Positions 7,460 through 62,243 of a stretch of 64,000 nt of DNA are shown piece by piece (position 1 is the first letter of the stretch; every line of letters begins with the position of its first letter). A program made the position numbers and the translations under genes. Source of the stretch: a virus; the IMG/VR virus record IMGVR_UViG_3300035180_001778, positions 186,001 through 250,000 of that record; one strand, written 5' to 3'. The notes under the pieces were generated by a model, which saw only the letters and a list, made by a program, of their open reading frames with translations, was not told where the DNA came from and did no database searches.

Positions 7460-8947
7460 TCACGCACCCAACGAGAAGAGTTGACCCTTGACCAAGAGTG
7501 CCTTCTTCTCGTCCTCGGAGGGCTCACGTCCGAGGGCATGACAGCAAGCCGTCATGTATTGCGTGACATCACGGTAGCGGGACGTCCCCCCAACCGCGAC
7601 CACGGCCCGATAGATCCGGCCTTCCCCTGCCATCATGGTTCGCTTGCTTGCGAGGTCCACAATGCGGGAAACAGCCAGGATTTCACGTCCGCTGAGCCTT
7701 TTTGAAGCTTGCACAGCACCCCAACCACCCGTCTTGAGGAGGATGAGACCCAAAAGGGTTTGCCGTGCAGACCTACCACCCCCAACAGTCGCCACCAAGG
7801 AACGAGCCACCTCTTTCCAGACGGGATTCCGGAGAGCGGACTTGATGAGGGTATCGTTGTCGTTCGCGTCCCCAATCGGGGAATCGCTCTTGGCCATATC
7901 CCCACGCACCTTCTCCAGAGCCTTCTCCTGGAGAGTTGCGGCAAGGTCATCGACGGCCTTGTCGAAGGGAGCCTTCTCCGGGGCCTTGGGGGCGGGAGTG
8001 GGAGGCTTGGTGACATCCTCCTTTTCCTGAGAATCGTCACCCCCAAATTGAGCTTTCCGAATGAGGCTGTAGGCAGCCTTCTGGAAGAGATCCGGATTTG
8101 CCACCCGAGTACCCCCAGCGAATGCCGCCTGAATCTGACCCCCATAAGTGGCAATCTCTTCGGGGGATAGGATGCTGCGAAGGACGGCGCCCGTGAAAGC
8201 TGGGTTTGCAACCCAGCTCGCCTCGATGAATTTGACACTCCCGGGCTCGTCTGCGATGTGCCCGCACAGCTCTGCGATCCGACGTTTGTTGCCGAAGTCG
8301 TCAACCCACTCGTTGCCCTTGGCGTAGCGAATGTCGGGACAGAGCTGCGTCTCGTCGTAGGCGACGTTGCCGCACTTCGTGCAGACGGTGAACTCGACCT
8401 GGCACCCCATCGAGAGGGTCTGAAGCTGGCCGCTCGTGATGGCCGAGATGAGGGGGCGGTGCTTCCGATCCGTGGCCACGAGGATGTCCACATAGATGGA
8501 GTCCCCGATATCCCGAGCCGCAGCGTCGATGATCTTCCCGCGAGACATCTCTGGGATCTGAATGTGCTCGACGTAGTTCTCCCCGCCAATGAACGTACGG
8601 AAGCACGACAGAAGGAGCTTCCGCTCCCAGGCATCGTGGTTGTTGTTGATGTACTTCGACGTCTTGGGGGCGATCAGCCAGTCCTTGTACTTGCGGGTGA
8701 TCGGGAAGCCCGCGACAACCTGTTCCCCAAGCTCTGCCGGGCTCTCTTCCGTGTCGACCGAGGCGATGATCGTACAGTGGGAGAGCATGAAGCTCGAAGG
8801 GTCATACTTCTGGAAGACGACCTTGGCAGCGGCACGATCAGCGAAGGGGTTCCCCTTCATCTGACTCTTGCTCTTGACTTCATCCCAGCCCGCGAACTTG
8901 ATGTCCGGCTTGACGATGGCTGCGTTTGCGTAGCGTAGGAAGGCCAT
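7460..8947 (-). CDS. prohead maturation protease
   Basis: 495 aa. Residues about 90-240 carry the protease-like core: NNNHDAWERKLL, GGENYVEHIQIPEMSRGKI with a candidate catalytic His, DIYVDILVATDRKHR-like strand, and LSMGC with the candidate Ser nucleophile, matching the His...Ser layout of phage prohead proteases of the herpesvirus-assemblin fold. A Cys cluster (FTVCTKCGNVAYDETQLC) follows and could bind zinc. The C-terminal 200 residues are Ala/Lys-rich and helical and may serve as an internal scaffold, as in lambda C/Nu3, though no separate start was proven. Expected to trim head proteins during maturation. Confidence 0.8.
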   Translation of the reverse strand: MAFLRYANAAIVKPDIKFAGWDEVKSKSQMKGNPFADRAAAKVVFQKYDPSSFMLSHCTIIASVDTEESPAELGEQVVAGFPITRKYKDWLIAPKTSKYINNNHDAWERKLLLSCFRTFIGGENYVEHIQIPEMSRGKIIDAAARDIGDSIYVDILVATDRKHRPLISAITSGQLQTLSMGCQVEFTVCTKCGNVAYDETQLCPDIRYAKGNEWVDDFGNKRRIAELCGHIADEPGSVKFIEASWVANPAFTGAVLRSILSPEEIATYGGQIQAAFAGGTRVANPDLFQKAAYSLIRKAQFGGDDSQEKEDVTKPPTPAPKAPEKAPFDKAVDDLAATLQEKALEKVRGDMAKSDSPIGDANDNDTLIKSALRNPVWKEVARSLVATVGGGRSARQTLLGLILLKTGGWGAVQASKRLSGREILAVSRIVDLASKRTMMAGEGRIYRAVVAVGGTSRYRDVTQYMTACCHALGREPSEDEKKALLVKGQLFSLGA

Positions 8948-9493
8948 TCAGGGGCTCTTTTCTGAGTAGGAGCTGTGTAGCTTGGTCAACTCCCTTGACA
9001 GAGTTGAGACGACATTCGTGTCTCCACCAAGAGACACGAATGTCGAACCCAGAGGCAAGAGAATCCGATTTAGCTCTTGGAAGACGTTGTCGATATCCCC
9101 ATGGTGAGCTGCTTTTGCAGCATGCTCAAAACAAGAGGCAACTGCCTCCAGGCTATCCTTCAGGTCCCGCTCAAGGTGCTTGCCATCCTTCGATTCGGCT
9201 TGGAAACGAGCAAAGACCCGAGTCGCCATGACCCCCGTCATATACTCGTACTTCATGAAGTCGGCCTTGGAGAGAGCCAGTTTCTTGGCTTCCAAGAGGG
9301 TGGGCTCTACCCCCAGCTTGTCTCCAGCCTGTTGGACATGGAACAGACCGTCCTTCGCGTAGAAGTCGATCACGATCCCATGGTCAAACGGGTAGCGGAT
9401 ACCATTACGACCGGCGAGGTTGTAAGAGTTCCCCTCTCCATCCCCCAAGTCCTTCAGGTCCTTGTGGAACCACCCTGCATCGACAGCACTCAC
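8948..9493 (-). CDS. hypothetical head-block protein, 181 aa
   Basis: Starts MSAVDAGWFHKDLKDLGD, stop immediately adjacent to the protease start, start overlapping the upstream gene's stop by 4 bp. N-terminal part contains a short beta section (RYPFDHGIVIDFYAKDGLFHVQ), then a mainly helical region. No family recognised. The tight overlap implies co-translation with the protease and small coiled-coil gene. Confidence 0.7.
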   Translation of the reverse strand: MSAVDAGWFHKDLKDLGDGEGNSYNLAGRNGIRYPFDHGIVIDFYAKDGLFHVQQAGDKLGVEPTLLEAKKLALSKADFMKYEYMTGVMATRVFARFQAESKDGKHLERDLKDSLEAVASCFEHAAKAAHHGDIDNVFQELNRILLPLGSTFVSLGGDTNVVSTLSRELTKLHSSYSEKSP

Positions 9494-26370: not shown

Positions 26371-26454
26371 GGATCGTGGAGGCGATGTTCCGATGCGTAC
26401 CTTCCGCCCTCTCGGGGGGCTACCTACCCGTCGAGAGCATCGCCTCCACGATCC
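26371..26454. repeat. 17-bp perfect inverted repeat spanning the sigma gene end
   Basis: GGATCGTGGAGGCGATG at 26371-26387 is the exact reverse complement of 26438-26454, with CTCTCG/CGAGAG closing part of the 50-nt loop. The right arm codes the last residues of the sigma-like protein (RGGDALDG), and the left arm is a non-coding copy beyond the stop. The transcript would fold into a long hairpin across the stop codon. Confidence 0.8.
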
Positions 26455-27131
26455 GCCCACTGAGGGAGCTTCACTTCACGGAGGATGTTGAACTTCTTGT
26501 TCGAGATGGCAGCGAAGACCTTGTGGTAGCGAAGGAAGCGACCATCCTTCCCCGAAGCCTCTCCAAGAAGCTTCACCGCCTTGAAGAACCGATGCCGGAC
26601 TCGACCTTGGGTCAAGCCAAGTCGCATCGCCACTTCGCTCTGACAGGTCGTCGACCACATCCCCACCAGAATGTCCACATCGATAGCCTTGAACGCAGGC
26701 TTGAGATGGCCATCTTGAATGAGGGGAAGGTCCCGCCGAAGCTCGGTCTCAGTGACTTGGGGGATTGACAGGAGGAACTTGATCCTCTGAAGACCTCGAT
26801 CAAGACGATAGGAGATGGCAGCTTGGGTGACGTCGAAGATCTCGGCGATATCCGCCTGACGCTTCTTTTGAATGTAGTAGAGGTAGATGAGATCGGCTTC
26901 CCTTTTGGGGATGCGATCTAGGAGCGGAGCCAGACGATCTTCGTAGTCCCCCGAGTAGAGGAACTCTGCGATGGGGTCGTCATCGTCCTCTTCTTGAATG
27001 AGGCCCGCGGCCGTATCCTCAAGAACCTGGAGACGATCGAGAAGGAGATCCTCCTCCTCGTTCCCTCGACCAGAAGGAAAGCGGTTGGCCAAAGTAGCCG
27101 GGTCTACCGAAATCACGTATCCAGTCGACAT
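26424..27131 (-). CDS. sigma-factor-like transcription regulator
   Basis: 235 aa. The ATG at 27131 was chosen because GGAAGGAAA ends 4 nt before it; a second ATG one codon earlier would be too close. Residues about 74-125 form a sigma region 4-like helix-turn-helix: RIPKREADLIYLYYI, QADIAEIFDVTQAAISYRLDRGLQRIKFLL, the usual layout of a sigma-70 domain 4. A second HTH-like region (STTCQSEVAMRLGLTQGRVRHRFFKAV, about 165-190) follows. No region 2 was seen. Placed at the head of the replication block, it probably directs a phase of phage transcription, possibly the GGTGTA elements (inference). Confidence 0.7.
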   Translation of the reverse strand: MSTGYVISVDPATLANRFPSGRGNEEEDLLLDRLQVLEDTAAGLIQEEDDDDPIAEFLYSGDYEDRLAPLLDRIPKREADLIYLYYIQKKRQADIAEIFDVTQAAISYRLDRGLQRIKFLLSIPQVTETELRRDLPLIQDGHLKPAFKAIDVDILVGMWSTTCQSEVAMRLGLTQGRVRHRFFKAVKLLGEASGKDGRFLRYHKVFAAISNKKFNILREVKLPQWADRGGDALDG

Positions 27132-27145
27132 CATTTTCCTTCCGC

Positions 27146-29122
27146 CTACGTTGTATTCGTAGAGGACTCCGCCAGACGGAAGAACGCCGTCAGCATCGGC
27201 TCGACCTTCACATCAACATCTTGGAGGTGCTTCGAGGCTGCCTCCGGGTTCGTCATCGGGTGGACGAAAGTGAGATCCAGGTTCGAGACGAGGGCCATGA
27301 GTCCCACGTTCTTCCTGACCTGTGCCTCCGAGGCACGAATCTTCTCCTGCTGAGATTTTGTCAACTCTGGCAGAGAAGATGAAAAAACGCCATCAATGGA
27401 TCCGTATGTACGAATCAAATGCACGATGGTCTTCTCCTGGAGCCTGAAAACACCAGGAATCTTGTCCGAGCTGTCTCCCGACATGGCCCGGAAGTAGACC
27501 ATCTTGCCCGGAGGAACCCCGTATTCCTCCTTCACGGCATCGACATCGAAGAGCTTCTCGGGGCGAAGACCACTCGAAGGAGCGAGGACAGTCGTCGTTG
27601 CGGTCACGAGCTGGAGAAGATCCCGGTCGTTCGAGAGGATGACGTTCACATCCTCCTTGAGGCGCCCCGTGACGAGAGTCGCGATGGCATCGTCGGCCTC
27701 TTCCACCTCGTTGTAGGCCTGGACGACCCCAAAAGACGGTAGGGCCGCCTTCAGCCATTCGATCTGATCGCGACCCTCGAAGGGGATCCTCCCTGCCTTG
27801 TACCCGGGGAAGACGCTCATCCGACGCTGCGAGGAGTAGTCCCAGCACACGTAGATGGTGGCCTTGGGGAACCTCTTGCGAAGAGATATCAGGCTCCGAA
27901 GGAACCCCGTCACCACCCCAGAAGGACGCCCCTGCTTGTCCTTGAGCTGGTCGAGTCCCGGTGCCCGGCCACAGCGGACCGCGAGGTTGTTGCCGTCGAT
28001 GATGAGATTTTGGGTCATTGCAGGGTCTTCCACATCGTCTTCGATGTCCGTCAACTTGTCGCTCAAGGCCTTCAACCGGAGCTGAATGTCTTGGAGCCAC
28101 TCCAATTCGAGATACCGAGATTCGATGGGGGTGAGAGAGGGGGTGGTGTTGAAGGCTCGGACGACCGTCACCAACTGGTTGACGTCCGCAGTCCACCGAG
28201 AGAGACGTTGGACCTCCTCACCAAGCTGGAGCAGATGCTCCGTGGAAGAAGTCGAGGACATCGCCCGAAGGAAGTTCACCTGCTTCTGCCCCACCGAGAT
28301 CCACGTTGAAAGCTTGGCGTGCTCCCCCCACAACAGCTCCAACCGGATGGGTTCGAGGTCGAGCGCGTAACCAGCAACCAGGTCTTGATCGAGAAGGGCT
28401 CGCTCCTTGGTGGTCCACACATCAAGCATTGTGTAGGACGCCAATACATCAAGGAGCCCGTCAAAACCCTCCGAAGACCACTGCATGACAGGGAAAGCCG
28501 CCTCTCCCCATTGCTGAAGGGTCATCCATCGGGTCTGGTAGGTCAGAGAACTCTTCTCCCCCTTCGCAACAAGCCGGAGTCCAGCTCGGGGGAAGGTGAT
28601 GAGAGACTCCTTTGAGCGGAGCTGAATGTAGACCTGGACTTCATCCTTCTCCGGGATGTCCTCGATGACCTTCGCCTTGACCAGCCGGTAGGGCCCCGAG
28701 AGAATGAGCACGAGGTCCCCCACCTCGATCCCCTGGTTCTCTTCTGCTTCAATCTGACGACGAAGCTTGAGCACATCCCGATCTGGAACGTAGGCGATTC
28801 TGCGTGTCGACCGAAAACGACTCCGGTCGACGTGGCTGATGACCCCCTGTACGTATTTGCTTCCTTCGAGCCGGTAGTACTTCTCTTCGGCATGAGCCCG
28901 CCGAATGAAGGCGTACCCTTCGAGGAGGTACTTGATGACCCTGTCCCCACCCACCTGAGTGACGGACGCGGGGATGAACACGTCCGCATCTCGAAGATGG
29001 TGCCGGATGGACTGCTTGATGAGATCCGGATCTTCCCCATCCGCCTTGGGCCCAAGCTCAAGAGCAACCCACTCCGACGGCTTTGCGGGGTCAATGACAG
29101 GTTTGATTTGGCGTGATGCCAT
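27146..29122 (-). CDS. NusG-like / KOW domain fused to 5'-3' exonuclease (FEN)
   Basis: 658 aa. Residues about 30-105 resemble the NusG NGN domain (HHLRDADVFIPASV, GDRVIKYLLEGYAFIRR), and 130-185 a KOW domain (EVGDLVLILSGPYRLVKAKV). The middle (about 200-365) is helical. From 369 a complete FEN-type nuclease begins with MTQNLIIDGNNLAVRC, then FLRSLISLRKRFPKATIYVCWDYSSQRR, EADDAIATLV, ILSNDRDLLQLV and SGDSSDKIPGVF, the acidic residues of Pol I-like 5'-3' exonucleases and T4 RNase H. An internal ATG at 28018 with GGAAGA upstream could also give the nuclease alone. Expected to remove RNA primers or flaps. Confidence 0.75.
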   Translation of the reverse strand: MASRQIKPVIDPAKPSEWVALELGPKADGEDPDLIKQSIRHHLRDADVFIPASVTQVGGDRVIKYLLEGYAFIRRAHAEEKYYRLEGSKYVQGVISHVDRSRFRSTRRIAYVPDRDVLKLRRQIEAEENQGIEVGDLVLILSGPYRLVKAKVIEDIPEKDEVQVYIQLRSKESLITFPRAGLRLVAKGEKSSLTYQTRWMTLQQWGEAAFPVMQWSSEGFDGLLDVLASYTMLDVWTTKERALLDQDLVAGYALDLEPIRLELLWGEHAKLSTWISVGQKQVNFLRAMSSTSSTEHLLQLGEEVQRLSRWTADVNQLVTVVRAFNTTPSLTPIESRYLELEWLQDIQLRLKALSDKLTDIEDDVEDPAMTQNLIIDGNNLAVRCGRAPGLDQLKDKQGRPSGVVTGFLRSLISLRKRFPKATIYVCWDYSSQRRMSVFPGYKAGRIPFEGRDQIEWLKAALPSFGVVQAYNEVEEADDAIATLVTGRLKEDVNVILSNDRDLLQLVTATTTVLAPSSGLRPEKLFDVDAVKEEYGVPPGKMVYFRAMSGDSSDKIPGVFRLQEKTIVHLIRTYGSIDGVFSSSLPELTKSQQEKIRASEAQVRKNVGLMALVSNLDLTFVHPMTNPEAASKHLQDVDVKVEPMLTAFFRLAESSTNTT

Positions 29123-29125: not shown

Positions 29126-30586
29126 CTATCCTCGGCTGGGCCAAGTTCGCTCGAACTCTCGCCGCCATTCATCCGGAGTCAACATACGAAGGTCGTCTGC
29201 CGGATCCCCACGTCGGGGAAAAGAAACCGGGACATGGACGTGATCGCGACCCCGAGCTTTGTTCACAGGGACGCCCTTGTGATCCAGCTCAGTCAGGGCA
29301 CAGACATCGCCAGAACCAATGGGACCCACCCCATCGAATCGAGTACCGTCGGGCTTCTTCTCCGGCTTCTTCACTTCCGGCAAGACCTGGACTGCCGGCG
29401 GAATATACCCAGCCGGGGCCACCACACTGGGAGTGATCGAAGGGTCAACCGTCAAGCTGATCACAGGAGCTTGAACAGGAGCCGGAGCCTGAACGGGAGC
29501 TGCCGTGACCACCTGAATGGGAGCCGCCATGGGGACCCCCGCGACCGACGGAGCAGGAATGCCCCCTGCCAGATTGAGGATGTCGCAGAAGAGATTCACC
29601 CTTGTGGTGTTCCTCCGCTGAAGGAAGTACTCCGAGAGCTTGAGGGTGTTCACGCCGAACGCTTCGTAGACCTTCTGACCGAGTGCGCGGTCGACGTAGA
29701 CGAAGTCAGCGAACATGTTGTTCGCCATTCGGTATGAATTCATGGCCGCTTCGGCGAGGCCATCAGCCACATCTTGAGGAGAGACCTGCTCACAAGCCTG
29801 TCCTACCAACTCGATCGCACGCTGAGGAGTCCCGAGTGAGAGCATGATCTCGTAGTACGTCGAGACGAGCGGGAGGCGGAGGTACTCCCGCACATTGGCG
29901 AGATTGACATCCCCCATTTGCCCGATCATCTCCAGCCGGTTGAGGACATCCCGAACGTGCCCCCCGGAGTAGTCGATGACAGTGAGCACAGCGTCATCCT
30001 CGAAGGAGACCCCTTCCGCCGTGAGGATGGACTTCATCCTTCCGAGGATGTCCTCTCGGGTCACCTTTCGAATGGCGTAGTCTTCGCACCGGGACCGAAT
30101 CGTCGCCCGGATCTTCTCCACTTCCGTCGTGCAGAAGATCCCGACGAGCTTGTTCTCCTCCAAAGGCTTGAGGAGAACATCCTGTGCATCCCGGGTCATG
30201 CGATGCGCCTCATCGAAGAGGTGGATCCGCTTCGAGGCCCCATAGACCGCGAAGGGCAGCTCCTCGACGAGGGCTCGCATGTGGTCGACAGTCCCGCAGC
30301 TCGCCGCATCTCGCTCGACGAATGCGAGCGAGGTTTCGGAGAGAATATACAGGCAGTTGTCGCACTCGTTACAAGGCTCAGGGTTGGCCAAGTCGATCGC
30401 CTGGCAGAGCATGGCCCTTGCCATGATCCGAGCAAGCGTCGTCTTCCCCTGACCGTGACCCCCAGCGAAGATGTAGTTCTTGCTGAGGGCCGTTCCGTCA
30501 CGAAGGCGTGTCTGGAGGATCTGGACAGTGCCTCGCTGGCCGAGGACGTCCGAGAACTTACGGGGCCTGTACTTGGTGTCCCACAC
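29126..30586 (-). CDS. dnaX: DNA polymerase III gamma/tau-like clamp loader subunit
   Basis: 486 aa. N-terminus WDTKYRPRKFSDVLGQ is the DnaX opening; the GTG start was kept for this reason. Walker A GGHGQGKTT (42-50), a Cys cluster PCNECDNC (about 71-78) of the zinc module, DEAH Walker B (125-128), and sensor IRSRC with the SRC finger (163-167). Domain III-like helices follow to about 350. Then a Pro/Ala-rich linker and a short basic tail of unknown role. Works with the HolA- and HolB-like subunits at 50-52 kb. Confidence 0.88.
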   Translation of the reverse strand: MWDTKYRPRKFSDVLGQRGTVQILQTRLRDGTALSKNYIFAGGHGQGKTTLARIMARAMLCQAIDLANPEPCNECDNCLYILSETSLAFVERDAASCGTVDHMRALVEELPFAVYGASKRIHLFDEAHRMTRDAQDVLLKPLEENKLVGIFCTTEVEKIRATIRSRCEDYAIRKVTREDILGRMKSILTAEGVSFEDDAVLTVIDYSGGHVRDVLNRLEMIGQMGDVNLANVREYLRLPLVSTYYEIMLSLGTPQRAIELVGQACEQVSPQDVADGLAEAAMNSYRMANNMFADFVYVDRALGQKVYEAFGVNTLKLSEYFLQRRNTTRVNLFCDILNLAGGIPAPSVAGVPMAAPIQVVTAAPVQAPAPVQAPVISLTVDPSITPSVVAPAGYIPPAVQVLPEVKKPEKKPDGTRFDGVGPIGSGDVCALTELDHKGVPVNKARGRDHVHVPVSFPRRGDPADDLRMLTPDEWRREFERTWPSRG

Positions 30587-30592: not shown

Positions 30593-31084
30593 TCAGTGCG
30601 CCGTAGCGGACTCCCCCTCAGAGGACGACATCACGATATCGTCCACCATGTCTTCGATCTCGATGGCCTTGGCGACGCTCGCGAACGCAGATAGGGTCTC
30701 GTTCCAGGCACCGTGCCGACGGAGAATCGAGGTGAACTCCTCGACATCCGGCGTACGGAGAACCCAGACCATGTCCCCGGTCTTGTCGTCTTCCTCTCCC
30801 GTGCAGTGCTCCAGGAGGTGATCGACGAGCGCCGTTCGCTTGTTCTCCGTCAGCTCATTCCAGGTGTCCTCGGCGACCTCGATGATGAAGTCGCAGTCGA
30901 TGAAGAACTGCGAGATGCCCGATAGCTTTCGGGCCTTGCCGAGGACGGGACGGCCAGACTTCGTCGAGCCCTTGTCCACGAAGGCGTACTTCAACCGTGC
31001 GGTGGCCAGCTCCGGGTGATACCCGGGGATCAGGTTCTTCGCAATGGTTGCGATCGTCTCACTCTCACTGTAAATCTTACCCAT
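30593..31084 (-). CDS. putative phage metallopeptidase, atypical active site
   Basis: 163 aa. Central block DCDFIIEVAEDTWNELTENKRTALVDHLLEHC resembles the phage zinc-peptidase family with W-x-x-L, KR-x-ALVDH and a His pair. In the common form the motif is DHELxHC; here it reads DHLLEHC, so the usual Glu position is Leu and a Glu sits one residue before the second His. The protein may be inactive or use another acid. Located between DnaX and primase with stop/start overlap of 8 bp to primase. Confidence 0.5.
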   Translation of the reverse strand: MGKIYSESETIATIAKNLIPGYHPELATARLKYAFVDKGSTKSGRPVLGKARKLSGISQFFIDCDFIIEVAEDTWNELTENKRTALVDHLLEHCTGEEDDKTGDMVWVLRTPDVEEFTSILRRHGAWNETLSAFASVAKAIEIEDMVDDIVMSSSEGESATAH

Positions 31085-31808
31085 AGGGAAACTCCATCAG
31101 GCTACCCGACCTCACATGAGATCGGAGGTACTCTCCAAGTCGGGCATCTCCCCAGGCCTCCCAGAGGTCTCCAGGATCCTTGACCAGCTTGCCGCCAACC
31201 AAAGTGACCCGGGGGTAAACTACCCGACGAACATCGAATTCCCGGCCGTACTGTTGGCGAAACCTATCGTACGCCCTATTTCCGGCGGAATCCATATCAT
31301 ATCCGATCCACACGCGACGTACAAGACGTCGTAGGATCCGAACAAATCCCTCCGTGACCCGAGCAGTCAGCGTCGAAGCAATACCAGGAAGGAACCTCTG
31401 GAGGGGTAGAAGATCGAAGCCACCCTCGACCAGAAGGATCTCCCCCGTCTCCCACACTGTGGGCATTGCCTGAGCGAGCCCGAACCCCACAGCCTCATCC
31501 TGCGCGAGGATGAAGTCCATGTAGCCCCCACGCTCCCTATCGACGTGCCGAAACTGGAGGCCTCGAATCTCGCCGATGGTGTTCGTAATCGGAAGGACGT
31601 AGCAATCGTCGAGCTTCCCCCCATCCCCCGACCAAGACACGAAGTCTTGGGGGTAGTTGATTGCCGGTAGAACCCGGTCAACGTACCCAATTTGAAATTG
31701 ACTGATCTGTTCGTCAGTGACCCCGCGTCCCCACAAGGACTCACGAACACGCTCGGGTAGCTCAGCTCCAGATTCAGATTCAGCGACGAACTCGTCAAGC
31801 CAGGTCAC
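31077..31808 (-). CDS. DNA primase, TOPRIM type
   Basis: 243 aa. DnaG-like core without the N-terminal zinc finger: DEFVAESESGAELPERVRESLWGRG, then YVLPITNTIGEIRGLQFRH (substrate-binding basic domain), the TOPRIM Glu in LLVEGGFDLLPL, and DxD as WIGYDMDSAGNRAYDRF, followed by PGDLWEAWGD. Length suits a primase domain with no helicase or C-terminal extension. Lies in a block with DnaX and the FEN fusion, consistent with lagging-strand synthesis. Overlaps the upstream gene by 14 bp. Confidence 0.8.
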   Translation of the reverse strand: MTWLDEFVAESESGAELPERVRESLWGRGVTDEQISQFQIGYVDRVLPAINYPQDFVSWSGDGGKLDDCYVLPITNTIGEIRGLQFRHVDRERGGYMDFILAQDEAVGFGLAQAMPTVWETGEILLVEGGFDLLPLQRFLPGIASTLTARVTEGFVRILRRLVRRVWIGYDMDSAGNRAYDRFRQQYGREFDVRRVVYPRVTLVGGKLVKDPGDLWEAWGDARLGEYLRSHVRSGSLMEFPYG

Positions 31809-33633: not shown

Positions 33634-34914
33634 TCAGTCCTTCGAGGGCATGTACCGGGTCACGCGGCACTCGTGCGACCCTTCCGGCCGGTTCTCCGCC
33701 GTGATGTCCCCGACCACCTTGCCGTTGTCGTCCATGAGGAACTCGTCGATGGTGCGGAACATGGCCCGTTCCTTGGGGGACTTGTCGTCGGCCTTGATGA
33801 CCGCGATCCGAAGCTGGACGTCCATGCCCTTCACGCCGTCGATGAGGTCGATGAGCCGATCGATGTTGACGTTGAAGGTGATCTCTTGCTCCTCGGAGCC
33901 GTCGATGACGACAGCCGGGAGCGGGAAGCTCCGAGCCTTGCCCTTCGTCTCCGCGACCCGGAAGAGCATCGTGGCCTGGCGTTGCACCTTCTCGCCCACC
34001 TCGACGTCACGGAACTCGTTGACGACCAGAGTGATCTTGTCTTCCTTGGAATCCAGCTCCGAGCGCATGAAGCGGAGGGCGTCCACCGTCAGCGACTTGG
34101 GGAGCCCAAGGATGAGCTTGTCCATCGTCTTCGAGTAGTACGAGAACTTCCCGTGAACGGCCTCGTGCTTCGCCCACCCAAGGGCGTTCCCCTTGGAGTC
34201 GACGGCGAAGATCATGTTGTCGCCCGTCACGAGCTTCACTTCCCCGTCCGACTTCGCGAGGAAGCTCGTGAAGAAAGACATGTGCTGGACGTGGATCGAG
34301 AAACCCTTGTCCACGAAGGCAGCGCTGTAGAACCAGAACGCCTGGAAGGTGTTCGCAGCGAAGAGGTGCCCTGAGCCCTTCTCCCACTCGTGCTTGGACT
34401 TGTCGAAGAGCTGGAGCGTCTTGAAGTGCTCCGGGATCCGCGTGTCGTCGGCCTTCCCGAGGAAGGGCTTGGCCAGCGTCATCGCCTCCTTGAATAGGCC
34501 CACGGGGAAGGACCGCTCATCCTTGGCTCCGGCGAGATCCCGATCACACGAGGCCATGAGCTTCGGGTCGAAGCTCGCGCGATCGGCCCCAGCTCCCGAG
34601 TTCGTGCTCCAGGAGACCGTGAAGTTGTCCGCTTCCACCTTGGACTCGATCGTGATCTCGTCATCCCGAAGGAAGCGAAAGCCGCTCGTGAACTCCGAGG
34701 GGAAGATGAAGGATCCCTCGGTGTCCGTCTCGTCACAGGAGATCGTGGCGCGAGCGACGTGGAGAGCATCGCGGGAGTAGATCGAGCAGAGGCCTCCCGT
34801 TCGGATGACGAAGAGGTAGCCGGCCCCGCCCGCGGGGGTCAGGGGACGCGGAGGGACGATCGAAACGATTGCGAGGGCCTTGATCAGGTCGGCGAGCTTG
34901 AGCGTGATTTTCAT
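33634..34914 (-). CDS. sliding clamp (DNA polymerase III beta-like)
   Basis: 426 aa from MKITLKLADLIKALAIV (ATG at 34914; the frame extends upstream only in low-quality sequence). The pattern of three topologically similar domains, the clamp-typical opening, and a C-terminal YMPSKD end fit a beta-clamp. Blocks such as GLCSIYSRDALHVARATI, FSIHVQHMSFFTSFLAK, GDNMIFAVDSKGNALG and RVTRYMPSKD fit ring strands, though direct motif identity is weak, so I rely on length, fold pattern and the DnaX/HolA/HolB context. It is flanked by SbcC halves. Confidence 0.6.
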   Translation of the reverse strand: MKITLKLADLIKALAIVSIVPPRPLTPAGGAGYLFVIRTGGLCSIYSRDALHVARATISCDETDTEGSFIFPSEFTSGFRFLRDDEITIESKVEADNFTVSWSTNSGAGADRASFDPKLMASCDRDLAGAKDERSFPVGLFKEAMTLAKPFLGKADDTRIPEHFKTLQLFDKSKHEWEKGSGHLFAANTFQAFWFYSAAFVDKGFSIHVQHMSFFTSFLAKSDGEVKLVTGDNMIFAVDSKGNALGWAKHEAVHGKFSYYSKTMDKLILGLPKSLTVDALRFMRSELDSKEDKITLVVNEFRDVEVGEKVQRQATMLFRVAETKGKARSFPLPAVVIDGSEEQEITFNVNIDRLIDLIDGVKGMDVQLRIAVIKADDKSPKERAMFRTIDEFLMDDNGKVVGDITAENRPEGSHECRVTRYMPSKD

Positions 34915-45267: not shown

Positions 45268-45447
45268 TCATCCTTGTCGGTAACTGCCCTCGGGTTTATC
45301 GAAGGCTTTCTTCTCGTCCCTTGCCTTCAATTCAGCAAGAGCTTCATCCGCTTTCTCAGCGGCATCTTTGAGGGAGTGGGAATGCCTTGCGTAATACCCC
45401 GAAATGATAGCGGCGTAAAACTGGCACCAGAGATCGCGGTCGCTCAT
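45268..45447 (-). CDS. small conserved-type phage protein, 59 aa
   Basis: Starts MSDRDLWCQFYAAIISG; ATG at 45447 overlaps the ligase TGA as ATGA. Body: YYARHSHSLKDAAEKADEALAE, a helix typical of tiny proteins widespread in phage early regions (LWxQFYxA, ADxALxE). Role unknown. Confidence 0.65.
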   Translation of the reverse strand: MSDRDLWCQFYAAIISGYYARHSHSLKDAAEKADEALAELKARDEKKAFDKPEGSYRQG

Positions 45448-47432
45448 CGGCCAGCCATCTTGAGGAAGGCCTCTTCCGAGATGCACGAGACCCCCGCCTT
45501 CCGAGCTGCAACGGCCTTGGTGCTCGTCGAGTCCGGGTCGGCGATGACGAGGTAAGTGACCCCCTTGCCAGCCGAAGACTTTACCACACCGCCGTTGTCG
45601 GTGACGAGGGTTTCCAGCTCTTTTCGAGGAAGAGTGCTCTTGCCCGTGAAGCAGAAAGACTGCCCCGTGAGAGTCCCCTTGACCCGACCCCGAATCTCGA
45701 TTCCGAGGGTCAGAATCTCCTGGAGCATTGCTTCGTTCGTGGGGTTGGTGAACCACTTGGCGAGGTCGCCTGCCTTCACCGGACCGATGCCCGCGATGGA
45801 GTGGAAGGGGCCCGTACGGTTCCCCGCGATGGCCTTCGACGTCTCCAAGCTCCCCGCCTGAATCGCAGCCATCGTGTCGTAGCCCGCGTCCATCAACAGG
45901 AGGAAGGTCGAAGACCCGCAGCCCGAGATCGACATGGCCCCCAAGAACTCCTCCAGGGGGATCGGGTTCTTGGCCCAGAGGAGCTTGTGGACCTTGGCCG
46001 CGCTCTTGTCCCCCATGCGATCGATGCTGGAGAGCTGCTCGACCGTGAGCTTGTAGAGGTCCATGACCGTCTTGACGTGACCCCCATCCACGAGCTTCTC
46101 GATGAGGCCGTCACCCCATTCCTTGATGTCGAGGACCTGGACGTAGCGCTTGATCCGGCCCGCCGACTGAGCGGAGCATTCGAGGGTGTTCGGACAGATG
46201 AGGTACTCCCCCTCCATCTCCGTGCTCGTCCCGCACACAGGACACTTGAGCGGACCCTCCTCGACCTTCTCGGGCTTCTGGTGAACCGCAGCGACCCGCG
46301 GGATGACGTCGTTGGCCCTGACGATCATGACCTCGGCCCCGACGCCGATCCCCAGGTCTCGGATGTACTTGAGGTTGTAGACGCTCGCGTTGGTGATCGT
46401 CGCGCCCATGACGTGGACGGGAAGGAAGATGGCCACGGGCGTCACTCGACCCGTCCCCCCAACCTGCCACTCGATCTTGGTGATCGTCGTGAGCTTCCCC
46501 TCCGCCTCGAACTTGAAGGCGACAGCACCCTTGGGACGGCCGTCCTTCTCCCCCAGCTCGTGTTGCTTGGCGAGGTTGTTGATGCGGATCACGAGCCCGT
46601 CGATCTCGTAATCGAGACGAGCCCGCTCCGTCTCCTGGTAGACCTTCCAGTACTCGACCGGGCCCCGCGCGTCAGACCCGGGGGCGTAGGTGTTGTAGGG
46701 AGGCGTCACGAACCCCATCATCCGGAGCATCTTGAACTGCTCGTCTTCGGTCACGGGCTGGACGTTGCCTTCGACGATCTCGTAGGCCATGACCGAGAGG
46801 TGCTCGGAGCCGGTCCCATCGAACCGTTTCGAGATCCCCGAGGCTGCGTTCCTGGGGTTGGCGTAGGAGGGGAAGTGCTTCTTGAGGTCGCTCTTCAGGA
46901 GGACGATCTCCGCCCGAATCGCTCCCGTGAAGGGATGCTCGCTCCCCAGGGTGATGGAGCGATACACGGCCGACTTCGAGACGCCCTTCATACGCTGGAC
47001 GTTGGATGTAATGTCCTCGCCCTCGATTCCATCCCCACGGGTGATCGCCTGGATCAGCTTCCCGTCCTCGTACTTGAGGTCGATGCTGATCCCGTCCAGC
47101 TTCTCCGTGATGAACAGGACCTCGCTCTTGCCCGCCGTGGTGGCTGCCCAGAGCCTCATCTCGACCGGCGTGTTCACCTTGTCGAGGCTGCCCATCACGT
47201 ACCCGTGGGAAGCCTTCTTCCACTCCGAGACGACCGGCACGGGGGCTCCGATGGCCGTGATCGCTGTGCTATCGGGCTTGATCTCCCGAAGCTCGGCGAT
47301 CCAGCCATCGAAGACGGCGTCGAGGACCGTGGGGGTTCCGTTGAAGTAGTCGAGCCGGGCCTGGTTGATCTTCTTCTCCAGAGCGCCGGCCGCGAGGTCC
47401 TTCGCCTGGTCCATCATCTCGTCGAAATCCAT
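45444..47432 (-). CDS. ligA: NAD-dependent DNA ligase
   Basis: 662 aa from the ATG at 47432 (a TTG at 47450 is possible but lacks a ribosome site). N-terminal region without a clear complete Ia domain, then adenylation motif TEKLDGISIDLKY (KxDG), RGDGIEGEDITSNVQ, LRAEIVLLKSDL-like strand, EIDGLVIR, AFKFEAEG and WQVGGTGRVTPVA. The OB part is followed by the zinc finger CPVCG...CPN-x-x-C, HhH repeats and a C-terminal BRCT domain (SFCFTGKSTLPRKELETLV). An NAD rather than ATP ligase is unusual for tailed phages but known. Confidence 0.9.
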   Translation of the reverse strand: MDFDEMMDQAKDLAAGALEKKINQARLDYFNGTPTVLDAVFDGWIAELREIKPDSTAITAIGAPVPVVSEWKKASHGYVMGSLDKVNTPVEMRLWAATTAGKSEVLFITEKLDGISIDLKYEDGKLIQAITRGDGIEGEDITSNVQRMKGVSKSAVYRSITLGSEHPFTGAIRAEIVLLKSDLKKHFPSYANPRNAASGISKRFDGTGSEHLSVMAYEIVEGNVQPVTEDEQFKMLRMMGFVTPPYNTYAPGSDARGPVEYWKVYQETERARLDYEIDGLVIRINNLAKQHELGEKDGRPKGAVAFKFEAEGKLTTITKIEWQVGGTGRVTPVAIFLPVHVMGATITNASVYNLKYIRDLGIGVGAEVMIVRANDVIPRVAAVHQKPEKVEEGPLKCPVCGTSTEMEGEYLICPNTLECSAQSAGRIKRYVQVLDIKEWGDGLIEKLVDGGHVKTVMDLYKLTVEQLSSIDRMGDKSAAKVHKLLWAKNPIPLEEFLGAMSISGCGSSTFLLLMDAGYDTMAAIQAGSLETSKAIAGNRTGPFHSIAGIGPVKAGDLAKWFTNPTNEAMLQEILTLGIEIRGRVKGTLTGQSFCFTGKSTLPRKELETLVTDNGGVVKSSAGKGVTYLVIADPDSTSTKAVAARKAGVSCISEEAFLKMAGR

Positions 47433-47442
47433 CCTCGACGAG

Positions 47443-47448
47443 TACACC
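47443..47448 (-). promoter_or_regulatory. GGTGTA start-proximal element
   Basis: GGTGTA, 10-nt spacer CTCGTCGAGG, ATG at 47432 of the NAD ligase. The GAGG touches the ATG, too close for a normal ribosome site, which fits a promoter rôle with a very short leader. Confidence 0.5.
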
Positions 47449-47456
47449 AAGGACGC

Positions 47457-56623: not shown

Positions 56624-56698
56624 TGGAGCTGACGAGGGGAGTCGAACCCCTAACCAACAGTTTACAAAACTGCTGCACTTCCATTGTGCTACGCCAGC
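56624..56698 (-). tRNA. tRNA-Thr (anticodon TGT)
   Basis: Acceptor GCTGGCG/CGTCAGC with one G-T pair, D-arm GTAGCACAATGGAAGTGC, anticodon stem GCAGT/ACTGT with loop TTTGTAA, T-arm AGGGGTTCGACTCCCCT, CCA encoded. Complete class I cloverleaf. Confidence 0.9.
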
Positions 56699-56775
56699 AT
56701 AGACCTCGCCCCACCTCGACCTAACATCTCTTTGATATGGTTTGTCGCCCCTTTGGGGAATGTGTGAAGAAAGGT

Positions 56776-56860
56776 TGGCGGAAGAAGGAGGATTCGAACC
56801 CCGAGGTTTTTAGGCCCCAACTGTTTAGCAAACAGCCCCCAGCCCTGCTGGTCATCTTCC
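56776..56860 (-). tRNA. tRNA-Ser (anticodon GCT)
   Basis: Class II: acceptor GGAAGAT/TTCTTCC (last pair T-T mismatched), anticodon stem GCTGT/ACAGT with loop TTGCTAA, long variable arm (GGGGCCTAAAAACCTC), T-loop TTCGAAT, CCA encoded. Serves AGC/AGT codons. Confidence 0.85.
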
Positions 56861-56934
56861 AAGTCCCATCCCGCAGACCGTACCAAGGGCCCGCTTGCTT
56901 TTTGGTGGAAAGCCAGGCCGATGGGGAGCCTGAG

Positions 56935-57021
56935 CGGAAGAAGGAGGTCTTGATCCCCACCCCCATTTCTGGGAGCACACTGTTTTCGAGGCAGGTCCGA
57001 CCCCCGGTCGGTTCTTCTTCC
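56935..57021 (-). tRNA. tRNA-Ser-like (anticodon CGA), degenerate
   Basis: Acceptor GGAAGAA/TTCTTCC perfect. Variable arm of class II size. Anticodon loop reads CTCGAAA, but the stem has only three good pairs, and the T-loop reads ATCAAGA rather than TTCGA-like. So the gene may be decayed or unusual. Without CCA. Confidence 0.5.
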
Positions 57022-57072
57022 AAAGTGACCTCCCTCTGTTACACCGAAGTGTGAGGGACGGTCAAGGGTTTT

Positions 57073-57285
57073 CTACTTCCCGGCGTCGAGAAGCATCTTG
57101 CCCGTGGAGCTGGACGAAGACGAGCTGGAGGCCGTCGAGCTACCCGAGCTGGACGAGACCGAGCTGGAAGCCGAGCCGCCCGTTCCCGTGCTGGTCGTCG
57201 CGGTCGGTTGAACCGACGAGCAGGCGGACAGGATGATGGCACAAGCCAGAAGAGCGAGGGACTGCGTGAAACCCTTGAAAAGCAT
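57073..57285 (-). CDS. poly-serine lipoprotein, 70 aa
   Basis: MLFKGFTQSLALLACAIILSAC then a Ser-rich tail (about 60% Ser, with runs of eight). Signal peptide with lipobox LSAC: cleavage and lipidation of Cys expected, anchoring to a membrane. GGAG lies 9 nt before the ATG at 57285. It is wedged between two serine tRNA genes. Possible spanin-type outer-membrane lipoprotein or superinfection factor; inference only. Confidence 0.75.
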   Translation of the reverse strand: MLFKGFTQSLALLACAIILSACSSVQPTATTSTGTGGSASSSVSSSSGSSTASSSSSSSSTGKMLLDAGK

Positions 57286-57321
57286 CGGGAAAGTCTCCAA
57301 TTCCGTTCCAATAGAAGCGAA

Positions 57322-57407
57322 TGGCGGAAGGCGGAGGAGTCGAACCCCAACGTGTCTAGCGCTCCCTGGCGTTCAAAACCAGTTTGCCTCCAATGGCGGC
57401 GCCTTCC
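57322..57407 (-). tRNA. tRNA-Ser (anticodon TGA)
   Basis: Acceptor GGAAGGC/GCCTTCC perfect, anticodon stem CTGGT/GCCAG with loop TTTGAAC, long variable arm (GGGAGCGCTAGACACGTT), T-arm with TTCGACT, CCA encoded. Class II. Confidence 0.85.
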
Positions 57408-57444
57408 AAGCGGACGTACTACCTACGTCCTTTCTACAAATCGA

Positions 57445-58026
57445 TCAAGGGTTTGTAGACGGAATCTCGATGTAGCCCCGGAAGGTAAGAGAGATCCTCT
57501 CACCACACTGCACGGGGCTCTTGGGGATCCTGTGCATGTGCGTGTTCTGCATCCCGGGGGCCATGAGGGCGAGGGACCCGTGCTGGAGCTTCAGCCGCTC
57601 GGGATCGAGCTGAACCGGAAGCTCAGGGCGAGCTTCCATGATCTGCTTGAACCAAATCTCGCGCTCGAATACAAGCGACACGATCCCGATGGGACGGGCG
57701 TCGTCCATCTCGGGCGAGTCATCGGCGTGCCACCCAAGCTGGTCCTTCTGATCCAGGTAGCGGTTGAGGAAGCAGACCTCGAAGGTCGCCCCCGTGAGCG
57801 CTTCGAGGTCCTTCCTGATCTCCCGGATGACGGGATGGTACGGACGAGGCTCGTACAGCCGGCGTCCCTTGCCCCGTCCGTAGACGTAGGGGGTCGGGGT
57901 GTCGTTGCAGTAGTACTCGCACCTGGGAGCGTCACCACGGCGCTCCCAGTCCAGATCATTCCGAAGAGCCGCGAACGCCTTGTCAGGGTCCGAGACGAAC
58001 TTGTAGGTGACGGGGGCCTTTTCCAT
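57445..58026 (-). CDS. AlkB-type 2-oxoglutarate/Fe(II) dioxygenase
   Basis: 193 aa from MEKAPVTYKFVSDP (ATG at 58026, 10 nt after GGTGTA). Motifs: PRCEYYCNDTPTPYVYGRG, LNRYLDQKDQLGWHADDSP (HxD iron ligands), HGSLALMAPGMQNTHMHRIP (second His), and ERISLTFRGY (Arg for 2-oxoglutarate). This is the AlkB order. It may repair alkylated phage nucleic acids or act against host modification defences. Flanked by tRNA genes. Confidence 0.85.
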   Translation of the reverse strand: MEKAPVTYKFVSDPDKAFAALRNDLDWERRGDAPRCEYYCNDTPTPYVYGRGKGRRLYEPRPYHPVIREIRKDLEALTGATFEVCFLNRYLDQKDQLGWHADDSPEMDDARPIGIVSLVFEREIWFKQIMEARPELPVQLDPERLKLQHGSLALMAPGMQNTHMHRIPKSPVQCGERISLTFRGYIEIPSTNP

Positions 58027-58036
58027 GGGGTCTAGA

Positions 58037-58042
58037 TACACC
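58037..58042 (-). promoter_or_regulatory. GGTGTA start-proximal element
   Basis: GGTGTA, 10-nt spacer TCTAGACCCC, ATG at 58026. A hairpin (AAGCTCCC.../...GGGGAGCGCTT, 58043-58069) lies immediately upstream, as seen at 4391 and 62931. Confidence 0.5.
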
Positions 58043-58264
58043 GAAGCGCTCCCCTTTGGGAGGGAGCTTGGACTCGGCGTTTGGGGGTCGTGGCGAGGTG
58101 AAGCGCGAGATCCCCATCCTATGGTCGGGCGGAGAATCCTGTTCGAGGCCTTCCGCGCGACACCGACCGGGGTTCCTGGTTGAGGACTCCCGGCTGTCCA
58201 AGCTCCCTTCCAGAAGGGAGCGCTGTGATCATCCTACAGGTTGATGCCGCTGGGGATCAACCCG
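58043..58264. other. non-coding gap with hairpins
   Basis: No supported gene. Hairpins: 58043-58069 next to the GGTGTA element; GCTCCCTTC/GAAGGGAGC (about 58200-58224), without a T-run; GGTTGAT/ATCAACC around 58240-58262 directly left of the inverted-repeat element. Looks like a processed leader or trailer zone of RNA genes. Confidence 0.5.
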
Positions 58265-58545
58265 TTCGTTCGTATTCTGAGAAGAGTCCCCGAACAACCC
58301 CTTGGGACCAGCCTCAAGGCTGTTCGGGACACCGGGATCTCACCCCCAATGCTCTCTTGCCACGTTTTTCCGTCAGAACACCTGGTCGCGTCCTTGCGGC
58401 ACTCTTCGGAAGTCAGCTCGGTTTACGCCGAGCTGCTCCTCTCCGTGGGGACTGCCTTGTATGGCTCCCATCCCCATTCGAGAGCATTTCATGCTGACCG
58501 TGGGGTTTCCACAGTCGAGAGGACTCTTCTCAGAATACGAACGAA
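58265..58545. repeat. structured RNA candidate closed by 25-bp inverted repeat
   Basis: 58265-58289 is the exact reverse complement of 58521-58545. Inside are nested helices: 290-296 with 321-327, within it 300-304 with 315-319; 348-356 with 480-488 (9 bp AATGCTCTC/GAGAGCATT); and 414-421 with 428-435 (CAGCTCGG hairpin), all numbered from 58000. No ORF is credible on either strand. On the minus strand it begins 2 nt after a tRNA-Trp-like gene. Probably a folded non-coding RNA, possibly processed by RNase III. Confidence 0.7.
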
Positions 58546-58547
58546 AC

Positions 58548-58625
58548 AACCAAGGGCGGATTCGAACCGCCTACCAATGGCGACCCTTTTGGAGAGTGCC
58601 CACCGCACCATGCGATGTCCTTGGT
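58548..58625 (-). tRNA. tRNA-Trp-like (anticodon CCA)
   Basis: Acceptor ACCAAGG/CCTTGGT perfect, T-arm GGCGG-TTCGAAT-CCGCC perfect, anticodon loop CTCCAAA with a weak stem (GCACT/AGGGT), variable loop longer than usual. CCA not encoded. It looks like Trp but its middle is 5 nt too long. Its 5' sequence also pairs with the preceding GAGAGT/ACTCTC, so alternative folds exist. Confidence 0.5.
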
Positions 58626-58930
58626 TAAAAAACTGGGCGTCCTATCACTTAGACGACTCTCGTGAGAGAGGAAGGTGTCGAACCTTCATACCCAACGGGG
58701 TGCCCGATACCAACGGACAGATGGGACTCGAACCCACCTCGACCCCTACTCTAAGAAGTCCGAACACGTTGGAAATTCACAGGTCTGCTTTCCACCGCAG
58801 AGCAAGCTTTAATCGTGTTCAGTCTTCGGTCGCAAGCCAGGGAGTCGAACCCCGCTTCACATCGATCACCTTGGAAGGCTGGCCGCCCGGCCACTTTTCG
58901 TCGATGCCCTGCGATGAGGGTCCTACAACG
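58626..58930 (-). other. tRNA-derived region with three orphan T-arms
   Basis: T-arm signatures occur at 58671-58687 (GAAGG-TTCGACA-CCTTC), 58721-58737 (GTGGG-TTCGAGT-CCCAT) and about 58838-58854 (CGGGG-TTCGACT-CCCTG). No normal acceptor, D-arm and anticodon set can be built for them: neighbouring half-molecules such as GAGAGTCGTCTAAG look like 5' halves. They may be decayed tRNAs or a tRNA-like array. No gene is supported on either strand here. Confidence 0.5.
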
Positions 58931-59402
58931 GGAGGACCTGCCCGATCAACCTCAAAGACTTCTGAATAGTCGATCTGTGTGGCCGCTCAGGTGCAATCAC
59001 GGTAGTCATGTACCGGAGGATTGCCGATCCCGCCGCCTGGGTCTTCGGTCCGGGGGTGCCAGTTCGCCCTCTACGCTGGCACCCTTGTCCTTCCACACAG
59101 AATCAGAAACCTCAAGTCAGACCTACGTGGTCTTGACGTTGGCCGTTCCGGTGAGTCATGTCACCGAGGCTGCTCCCGCGTTGGCGTTGGGGTCTTGGGT
59201 CAGTGTTGGCGTCGAGTATCTTACCCACCTTGGAGGCATGGGTACCTTCTGAGCGCGCTTCTGACTTGTCCCTGCCACGCAGGCCTGACTTGAGGCGTCG
59301 TACTATTCAGTTGTCAATGACCGAGTCGGCTTTCGTTCTCCGTCTCGTAGTAGTTCTACAGTCTGAGTCGTTCCCTGATCAACCTCGGGGTGTTTTTTCT
59401 TG
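58931..59402. other. non-coding stretch, 470 bp
   Basis: No convincing coding frame or tRNA. A 9-bp hairpin GTGCCAG/CTGGCAC lies at about 59055-59086. AACCTC/GAGGTT with a T-run loop (59375-59406) precedes the second inverted-repeat element. Small plus-strand frames here have no homology-like features and cross RNA genes. Confidence 0.5.
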
Positions 59403-59551
59403 AGGTTCGGGTTGAGCAGAGCACAACCTTCGTGCTGACTCGAACAGCCACACCCAACCTTGGGATACCGGACTCGAACCGGAATACAGAGGCTTATGCT
59501 GCCCCTGTGAGATACCCTTCTCTCCAGTTGTGCTCTGCTCAACCCGAACCT
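59403..59551. repeat. tRNA-like element closed by 25-bp inverted repeat
   Basis: 59403-59427 is the exact reverse complement of 59527-59551. On the minus strand the interior contains two T-arms (CCGG-TTCGAGT-CCGG and GCTG-TTCGAGT-CAGC), a D-arm-like GAGA-GAAGGGTA-TCTC and a hairpin with loop AGCATAA on a GGGGC/GCCTC stem. So it resembles tRNA parts set on a very long acceptor stem. It starts 2 nt after tRNA-Ser(GGA) on the minus strand, like the element at 58265. Confidence 0.7.
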
Positions 59552-59553
59552 AG

Positions 59554-59638
59554 CGGAAGATAGAGGCGTCGAACCCCGGCAGATAAATCCGCCACACCGT
59601 TTTCCAAACGGGCCTCGCTCCGAGCGAGAATATCTTCC
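59554..59638 (-). tRNA. tRNA-Ser (anticodon GGA)
   Basis: Acceptor GGAAGAT/ATCTTCC perfect, D-arm CTCGCTCGGAGCGAG, anticodon loop TTGGAAA on CCGT/ACGG-based stem, variable arm GGCGGATTTATCTGCC, T-loop TTCGACG. CCA not encoded. Confidence 0.8.
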
Positions 59639-59646
59639 AAAACGTG

Positions 59647-59762
59647 GGGGAGTGTCCAGGAATCGAACCTGGCTAGCTTTTCAGCAGGTCATTGAGAGAA
59701 GGAGCATGTGGCCACATGCTCAAACCTCATAAAAACCCTCGTCTTCCAAGACGAACACTCCC
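59647..59762 (-). other. tRNA-like element, 116 nt
   Basis: Acceptor GGGAGTG/CACTCCC and T-arm CCAGG-TTCGATT-CCTGG are perfect, but the middle is about 40 nt too long and holds hairpins CGTCTTGGAAGACG and a 20-bp palindrome at 59702-59721 (GAGCATGTGG/CCACATGCTC). No normal anticodon arm is evident. Could be a tRNA with an insertion or a mimic. Confidence 0.6.
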
Positions 59763-59764
59763 TT

Positions 59765-59834
59765 TTTGCCGAGGGGAGTTGAACCCCCAACCTTCCCCTT
59801 GTGGGGGATGTTCTACCATTGGAACTACGGCTAC
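59765..59834 (-). other. tRNA-like element, unusual anticodon loop
   Basis: D-arm GTTCC-AATGGTA-GAAC and T-arm GGGGG-TTCAACT-CCCCT are canonical. The anticodon arm is TCCCC-CACAA-GGGGA, a 5-nt loop, and the acceptor pairs only GCCG/CGGC. So it is probably decayed or modified; identity undetermined. Confidence 0.5.
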
Positions 59835-59850
59835 ATCTTGAGGGGGAAGC

Positions 59851-59898
59851 GACTCTGGCCTTACCCGCGGCCCCCAAGGGGGCGGGCCAGAGTCTTTT
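59851..59898 (+). terminator. plus-strand intrinsic terminator
   Basis: GACTCTGGCC (59851-59860) pairs with GGCCAGAGTC (59885-59894), extended by a GGCCCCC/GGGGGC inner helix, followed by TTTT on the plus strand. It is the clearest plus-strand stop signal in the RNA region, although no plus-strand gene is visible upstream. Confidence 0.65.
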
Positions 59899-60230
59899 CA
59901 CCAAGGCCGGCGACCCTGGACTTCACGGCCCCGCTGCCTTTGGCAGATTCGGGGTAGTCTTACTCGCCTTCATCAGGGGAGCCCGTTTGAGTTTTCCTGT
60001 GGAGGGGTAACTCAGAAACCCAGGGATGTTTTGGACGGCCTTATCCCACCGAGCCGCCAAGCCTCGCATTGTAGCCCGGTATCACCCGGGGGCTTGGTCT
60101 ACGCGGTCTTTGTCCCGCATGGTCATCTGCATGTTTTCACTGTATCTCCTTCCGTCTCCTTTTCGTTTCAGCGTCTCGATGTAACCTCTACAGGCCGACC
60201 CCCAAGACGATCAACCGAATCGGATCTTTT
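59899..60230. other. non-coding stretch, 330 bp, folded
   Basis: No gene supported. Hairpins: TGAGTT/AACTCA (about 59986-60013), and a two-stem arrangement CCAAGCC.../...GGCTTGG (60057-60099) enclosing CCCGG/CCGGG. It lies just after the stop of the frameshifted ATP-grasp gene on the minus strand, so it could be its 3' region or another structured RNA. Confidence 0.4.
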
Positions 60231-61156: not shown

Positions 61157-61163
61157 GGGAGCC

Positions 61164-61778: not shown

Positions 61779-61785
61779 TGACCTG

Positions 61786-62064
61786 TCAGTACACCAAAAC
61801 ACCCGCCGCCTGAGCAAGCGCGATCAGAGCTTCATCGACCGTCCCAGCATGCTCGTGCGTCAGAACGATGGTCTCCGACTTGGGGGTGTTGAAGTCAGAG
61901 CCGTAGAGCCGCTCCTTCCGGACCACGGACGCGGACACAGTGTCACAGCCGTCGAAGTTCAGGGGGTGGGGTTCGCACTCAACACGAACGACATAATCTT
62001 CCGACCGCTCGCGCTTCAGGTAGAATGCGTTGACGATCTTTCGGCACAAAGCCATGTATTCCAT
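61786..62064 (-). CDS. hypothetical protein, 92 aa
   Basis: MEYMALCRKIVNAFYLKRE..., small alpha/beta (YVVRVECEPHPLNFDG, TVDEALIALAQAAGVL). ATG at 62064 follows GGTGTA with a 9-nt spacer directly behind the tRNA-Ser gene. No family recognised; ends 8 bp before the exonuclease start in transcript order. Confidence 0.6.
   Translation of the reverse strand: MEYMALCRKIVNAFYLKRERSEDYVVRVECEPHPLNFDGCDTVSASVVRKERLYGSDFNTPKSETIVLTHEHAGTVDEALIALAQAAGVLVY
61790..61795 (-). promoter_or_regulatory. GGTGTA start-proximal element
   Basis: GGTGTA, 11-nt spacer CTGACAGGTCA, ATG at 61778 of the exonuclease. The element lies inside the last codons of the upstream 92-aa gene. Confidence 0.45.
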
Positions 62065-62073
62065 GGCTAGCCA

Positions 62074-62079
62074 TACACC
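62074..62079 (-). promoter_or_regulatory. GGTGTA start-proximal element
   Basis: GGTGTA, 9-nt spacer TGGCTAGCC, ATG at 62064. It lies 2 nt past the 3' end of tRNA-Ser, so tRNA maturation might also free the message. Confidence 0.45.
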
Positions 62080-62081
62080 AG

Positions 62082-62240: not shown

Positions 62241-62243
62241 GGT

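Follow-up and report, generated by a model that had tools for sequence, protein, structure and literature searches.

FEN is a standard nuclease for primer removal in DNA replication. Transcription elongation factors of the NusG/RfaH/LoaP/Spt5 type have a different make-up, with an NGN (NusG N-terminal) domain followed by a KOW domain. In excerpts of a review of NusG, NusG/Spt5 is described as the sole universally conserved transcription factor family, and an extra domain is mentioned there only for T. maritima (PMC7819879). A survey of jumbo phages records FENs in some groups and leaves KOW unmentioned (PMC7824862). A described system in which a phage joins the two processes is late transcription in phage T4, where the sigma factor gp55, the coactivator gp33 and the sliding clamp gp45 connect replication to transcription by the host RNA polymerase (RNAP) (PMC2988020, PMC7892883). 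No published NusG-FEN fusion was found in the open-access literature searched, an absence that is not proof, and within that literature the statement of an earlier note on this DNA, that no described protein joins an elongation factor to a primer-removal nuclease, is upheld.

Such a fusion is encoded in the window, the whole 64,000-nucleotide stretch of DNA analysed here, which spans bases 186001-250000 of a 350,469-base IMG/VR virus record. The gene (658 aa; 27146..29122, minus strand), characterised by ORF analysis and by Pfam, PHROG, profile and fold searches, starts with ATG at 29122 and runs down to 27146 with no internal stops. Its product consists of three parts: an NGN-KOW module (residues 17-187), a helical linker (residues 188-368) and a FEN-type 5′ nuclease (residues 369-658). 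The earlier note had read a NusG-like NGN plus KOW joined to a full FEN from motifs that are indeed present in the ORF, and sequence, fold, comparative genomics and selection all bear this reading out.

The nuclease domain (27149..28018, minus strand) was assigned by Pfam, PDB profile and fold searches and by its invariant acidic residues. Pfam 5_3_exonuc_N (PF02739) covers residues 373-535 (E 1.8e-27; 96.5 bits against a cut-off of 34.3) and 5_3_exonuc (PF01367) covers residues 536-619 (E 3e-13; 50.5 against 40 bits). With both families above cut-off and nine acidic residues (D376, D428, E475, D477, D478, D499, D501, D550 and D553) invariant in ten relatives, the full FEN nuclease claimed for residues 369-658 stands, and the carboxylates of the two-metal active site are present. 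By profile the domain matches the T5 5′ nuclease and the nuclease part at the N-terminus of DNA polymerase I from M. smegmatis and Taq; by fold it matches mycobacterial FEN (M. smegmatis 6c33, TMt 0.77), Taq, ExoIX and T5 D15. The phage domain thus has the Pfam families, the nine acidic residues and the fold in common with described FENs (the Pol I N-terminal domain, T5 D15, ExoIX/Xni and mycobacterial FEN); it differs in its setting, being joined behind NusG and not ahead of a family-A polymerase. Membership of the DNA polymerase I family was rejected, as the ORF contains no polymerase domain and the FEN is not joined to a family-A polymerase here. The family-A polymerase of the same record is a separate 954-aa ORF with a Pfam polymerase domain only, and Pfam finds no FEN domain in it.

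The N-terminal domain (NTD) is made up of the NGN domain and a following helix (residues 17-128; 28739..29074, minus strand), assigned from AlphaFold2 (AF2) secondary structure, fold search and profile, and the KOW domain (residues 130-187; 28562..28735, minus strand), assigned from Pfam KOW and a Foldseek match to 2mi6. When the single sequence is submitted to Pfam, both matches are below cut-off (KOW E 0.004-0.06, NusG E 0.06). The best sequence match in the PDB of an NTD profile built from 11 relatives is T. maritima NusG (E 3.5e-8), the PHROG family 'transcription antiterminator' (E 5e-5) is matched by 11/11 relatives, and the NCBIfam nusG and LoaP models find matches in all 11 as well. 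A fold prediction of the N-terminus followed by a structure search had been proposed in the earlier note as a check on its NusG assignment; the AF2 model of residues 1-199 (pLDDT 78) returned NusG/Spt5/RfaH-type structures as its first 46 PDB matches, which together with the T. maritima profile match confirms the assignment. The KOW domain superposes on the M. tuberculosis NusG CTD (2mi6) with an rmsd of 1.1 Å and a TMt of 0.80 (Foldseek). Because the whole-domain TM-scores of the NTD model are low, about 0.2-0.5, probably owing to a different placement of the two small domains, the fold evidence rests on the E-values and the KOW match.

The AF2 model has the order and fold of the superfamily, NGN then KOW, likewise seen in NusG, RfaH, LoaP and Spt5, but the phage protein is phage-borne and adds a helical linker and a C-terminal FEN nuclease. 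Curated cut-offs are not reached by TIGR00922 nusG (24.3 against 135.7 bits), NF033641 LoaP (19.1 against 125) or PF02357 (14.3 against 22.2 bits), and judged from these profiles the NTD is a distant branch of the NusG/RfaH/LoaP superfamily and not an equivalog. It also differs in detail: the PGY of NusG is replaced by [ED]GY in the fused-phage family, and in the KOW loop the family profile alignment places I/V and A where the Rho/S10-binding DFxG of NusG has F and G.

The fusion is conserved. When IMG/VR was searched with the NTD and with NTD alignments, the fused frame was found in 37 contigs, own record not counted; several of these are near-copies, and the tree takes in 28 different fused sequences. 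A split gene was seen only in L003 (407 kb), in which two genes of 320 and 309 aa overlap by ATGA. That the ORF itself represents two genes, joined by chimeric assembly or by an overlooked stop codon, is vanishingly improbable; the two genes of L003 lean that way, but the frame is continuous in all 37 fused contigs, which come from many metagenomes, and purifying selection acts on the linker. Chimeric assembly was ruled out by the independence of these contigs and by the linker selection. The earlier note had allowed that relatives might carry two separate genes; L003 alone does so, and the other fused-clade relatives keep one frame.

The fusion appears to have a single origin. In the NTD tree the fused and split sequences form a group apart from 13 standalone NusG genes (support 100/100), and within it the fused L012 is the sister of L003, a pairing supported at 99/97 in this tree, at 99/95 in one built from fewer NTDs and at 100/100 in a tree of the FENs. 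The simplest history would be one fusion and one later split, with the root assumed between the two groups on midpoint rooting only. No fusion was found among the isolate phages of INPHARED, where the whole-protein matches listed span the FEN side alone and the NTD matches are phage G gp582 and LR745208 only. No cellular relatives were found in GTDB genome contigs, and a cellular origin of the fusion was dropped on that basis. The largest phage record bearing the fusion is L111 (528,957 bases).

The linker (28019..28561, minus strand), defined from AF2 helices of low confidence, length comparison and dN/dS, varies between 81 and 184 aa among the phages and is poorly conserved in sequence; because it is so poorly conserved and is modelled at low confidence, it does not allow a particular docking surface to be pinpointed. 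Purifying selection nonetheless extends across NTD, linker and FEN alike. The dN/dS of the linker is 0.14 against the nearest relative and 0.09-0.35 in pairs with measurable dS, which on sequence evidence argues that the phages produce the joined polypeptide and that it is under selection. Irregular LxxW-like motifs can be seen by eye in the linkers (window 28019-28561; also L010, L012 and L019) and may derive from a helical repeat that has diverged and differs in copy number, although no repeat unit could be firmly established in the fused linkers.

The sister clade offers a view of the locus without the nuclease. At its 13 loci, as in the uncultured huge phage LR745208 of this clade, an orthologous NusG gene lies between the clamp loader and a sigma-like gene, as in the window; the NusG of the LR745208 clade is standalone and no FEN was detected in the LR745208 record, whereas in the window phage NusG is fused to FEN. 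A FEN family match was found in 0/7 of the larger sister-clade records tested, an absence that is provisional as the records may be incomplete; one of the seven looks like a second record of the LR745208 phage. Exactly one FEN match was found in 17/17 fused or split records tested; it is part of the fused gene except in L003, where it adjoins the NusG gene. The clamp loader ORF of LR745208 (L053:4161-6047) has two dnaX stretches around an inserted CFTEDAQL...VSN segment, which looks like a short intein, and its family-A polymerase match falls into three pieces within a 1763-aa frame.

The neighbours of the fused gene combine replication and transcription functions, all on the minus strand. Directly upstream is a clamp loader (DnaX/gamma-like AAA+; 29126..30586; Pfam, PHROG, synteny), then a putative phage metallopeptidase (30593..31084; Pfam PF18894, synteny) and a toprim/DnaG-like primase protein (31077..31808; Pfam, PHROG, synteny), and directly downstream is a sigma-like protein with sigma-70 region 4 (26424..27134; Pfam, NCBIfam, synteny). 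This order, from toprim gene to sigma gene, is kept at every examined fused or split locus with enough sequence to show it (the short contigs L014 and L036 end before the toprim gene), and clamp loader, NusG(-FEN) and sigma follow one another in fused and sister clades alike. The window also contains a probable sliding clamp (DNA polymerase processivity factor; 33634..34914; PHROG phrog_947, E 2e-5) and a NAD-dependent DNA ligase (45444..47450; Pfam), and the phage encodes delta-type subunits. The metallopeptidase, which adjoins the clamp loader in nearly all fused-clade loci, carries a PHROG label of a transposase family. The sigma-like neighbours (window 26424-27134; L053:6579-7172) have sigma-70 region 4 with no region 2 match and an apparent second helix-turn-helix, and the protein may be a minimal sigma or a gp33/gp55-like factor. 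In L004, an inserted gene with three similar parts, HNH-like by eye (8363-9484), separates the sigma gene from the conserved gene next to it. Five minus-strand tRNA genes (Thr, Ser, Trp, Ser, Leu) occupy 56624-63654 of the window.

This setting bears on the partner of the NGN-KOW half. No RNAP beta subunit match was found in 14 records, so a phage RNAP was dropped as partner, which would leave the host polymerase as the natural one. The NGN-KOW module could instead be an adaptor to the replisome or clamp machinery, or a nucleic-acid binder, that places FEN at forks; the clamp loader, primase-like protein and sliding clamp nearby would fit, as would a KOW loop unlike the Rho/S10-binding loop of NusG, since its partners may differ. 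Such an adaptor is nevertheless unlikely, given that the other constant neighbour is the sigma-like gene and that NusG without FEN beside a sigma factor in the sister clade suggests a protein that served transcription before it was fused.

At the FEN boundary lie a candidate internal start codon, ATG (M369; 28016..28018, minus strand), and a candidate Shine-Dalgarno sequence, GGAAGA (28026..28031, minus strand), which is weak in the window phage and stronger in many relatives. The earlier note suggested that the nuclease alone might be made from here. Both elements are present, but the Shine-Dalgarno score does not stand out in the window phage, where 41% of in-frame positions are as good or better. 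The suggestion gains its support at the level of the family: an in-frame ATG, GTG or TTG is found 3-9 codons ahead of the first FEN strand in 27/28 distinct fused sequences (a first set of 19 and 9 more), the sole exception being L111, which has ACG. The cases other than Met are Val encoded by GTG (L012, L036, L085, L102, L113) and Leu encoded by TTG (L046/L047), the start codon in L012 being one position upstream, and the chance that all of them would be start codons is ~0.006 under the codon usage of the genes with L036/L085 counted once. The idea was formed post hoc from the first cases; L085, L102 and L113 were read later and fit. In L003, the actual FEN gene starts at the same place.

Ribosome-binding signals give a more divided picture. 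Outside the subclade with 'MT/ME' junctions, Shine-Dalgarno-like pairing is clearly stronger than at the remaining codons of these genes (p 7e-5, uncorrected for shared ancestry), whereas no enrichment was found within that subclade (p 0.18). By strength of pairing the FEN start is 10th among 588 alignment columns, and those above it lie in conserved protein stretches; a weak reduction of synonymous change at the site (combined p 0.03-0.07 for different sizes of the interval compared) is no more than suggestive. Taken together, many phages of the clade probably also make free FEN from the internal start. The conserved start could be taken to mean that a separate FEN alone matters and that the part upstream is a decaying NusG relic; with an NTD dN/dS of 0.03-0.12 and 42 invariant columns among 11 NTDs, this is highly improbable.

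The reading preferred here, tentative and just short of an even chance, is a bifunctional jumbo-phage protein in which the one nuclease that the phage has for primer removal is tethered to a host-RNAP elongation factor, with free FEN made besides. The NGN-KOW half, as a phage version of NusG/RfaH/LoaP, would by its family dock on the elongating host RNAP and keep it moving on phage DNA. The FEN half, judged by family and genome content, would be the only 5′ nuclease of the phage, removing RNA primers and flaps before ligation. The linker would tether the nuclease to the transcription complex, where it could process primers, R-loops or flaps on the spot at transcribed or colliding phage DNA, and the internal start probably supplies untethered FEN as well, for routine tasks on the lagging strand. 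Tethering of this kind would be of benefit to the phage and would couple transcription to replication; the removal of RNA or R-loops at the transcribing polymerase, the function proposed in the earlier note, may be part of it. A more specific version, in which a transcription-coupled primer/R-loop nuclease on host RNAP serves primer removal, R-loop clearing or conflict repair wherever phage DNA undergoes transcription and replication simultaneously, and one gene yields tethered FEN and, through the conserved internal start, free FEN, is possible but doubtful.

Several observations weigh against a tether. NGN binding to RNAP is deduced from a family whose curated NusG cut-offs the protein does not reach, the covalent link has been lost in one lineage (L003), the linker is variable and its model of low confidence, and the fusion could serve mainly co-expression should free FEN be produced as well. 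On this last account the elongation factor and FEN would each work alone, with the internal start giving free FEN and the fused form having no special role. Short or overlapping junctions between neighbouring genes are the usual path to fusions, and the ATGA overlap of the two L003 genes, the start codons at the FEN boundary in nearly all fusions and the variable linker are consistent with it. Co-expression alone is thus a possibility to be taken seriously, if a doubtful one, and is nearly as likely as tethering. What argues that the link is worth something is the retention of one fused gene, with a single split seen, among phages that have diverged to about 40-50% identity, and the purifying selection on the linker.

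In a stable covalent NusG-FEN, transcription would be joined to replication or R-loop clearance within one molecule, directly and in a form open to test, and the gene is a candidate for two products through a conserved internal start. The family contains its own natural controls in the fused clade, the sister clade, where NusG stands alone and FEN was not detected, and the one re-split lineage. These findings suggest that this group of giant phages physically links gene reading to DNA replication. Among described phages, the jumbo Bacillus phage G has a NusG-like protein, gp582, that matches the NTD profile (E 1.1e-5), but its FEN gene is elsewhere in the genome, unlinked and ~64 kb away in the linear record, whereas the two are fused in the window phage. 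Phage T4 offers a parallel by analogy, drawn from the gene neighbours (clamp loader and sigma): replication and transcription are linked in T4, and clamp loader, NusG and sigma genes adjoin in the window phage. T4 has no elongation factor-nuclease fusion, whereas in the window phage the link would be covalent, in the form of NusG-FEN itself.
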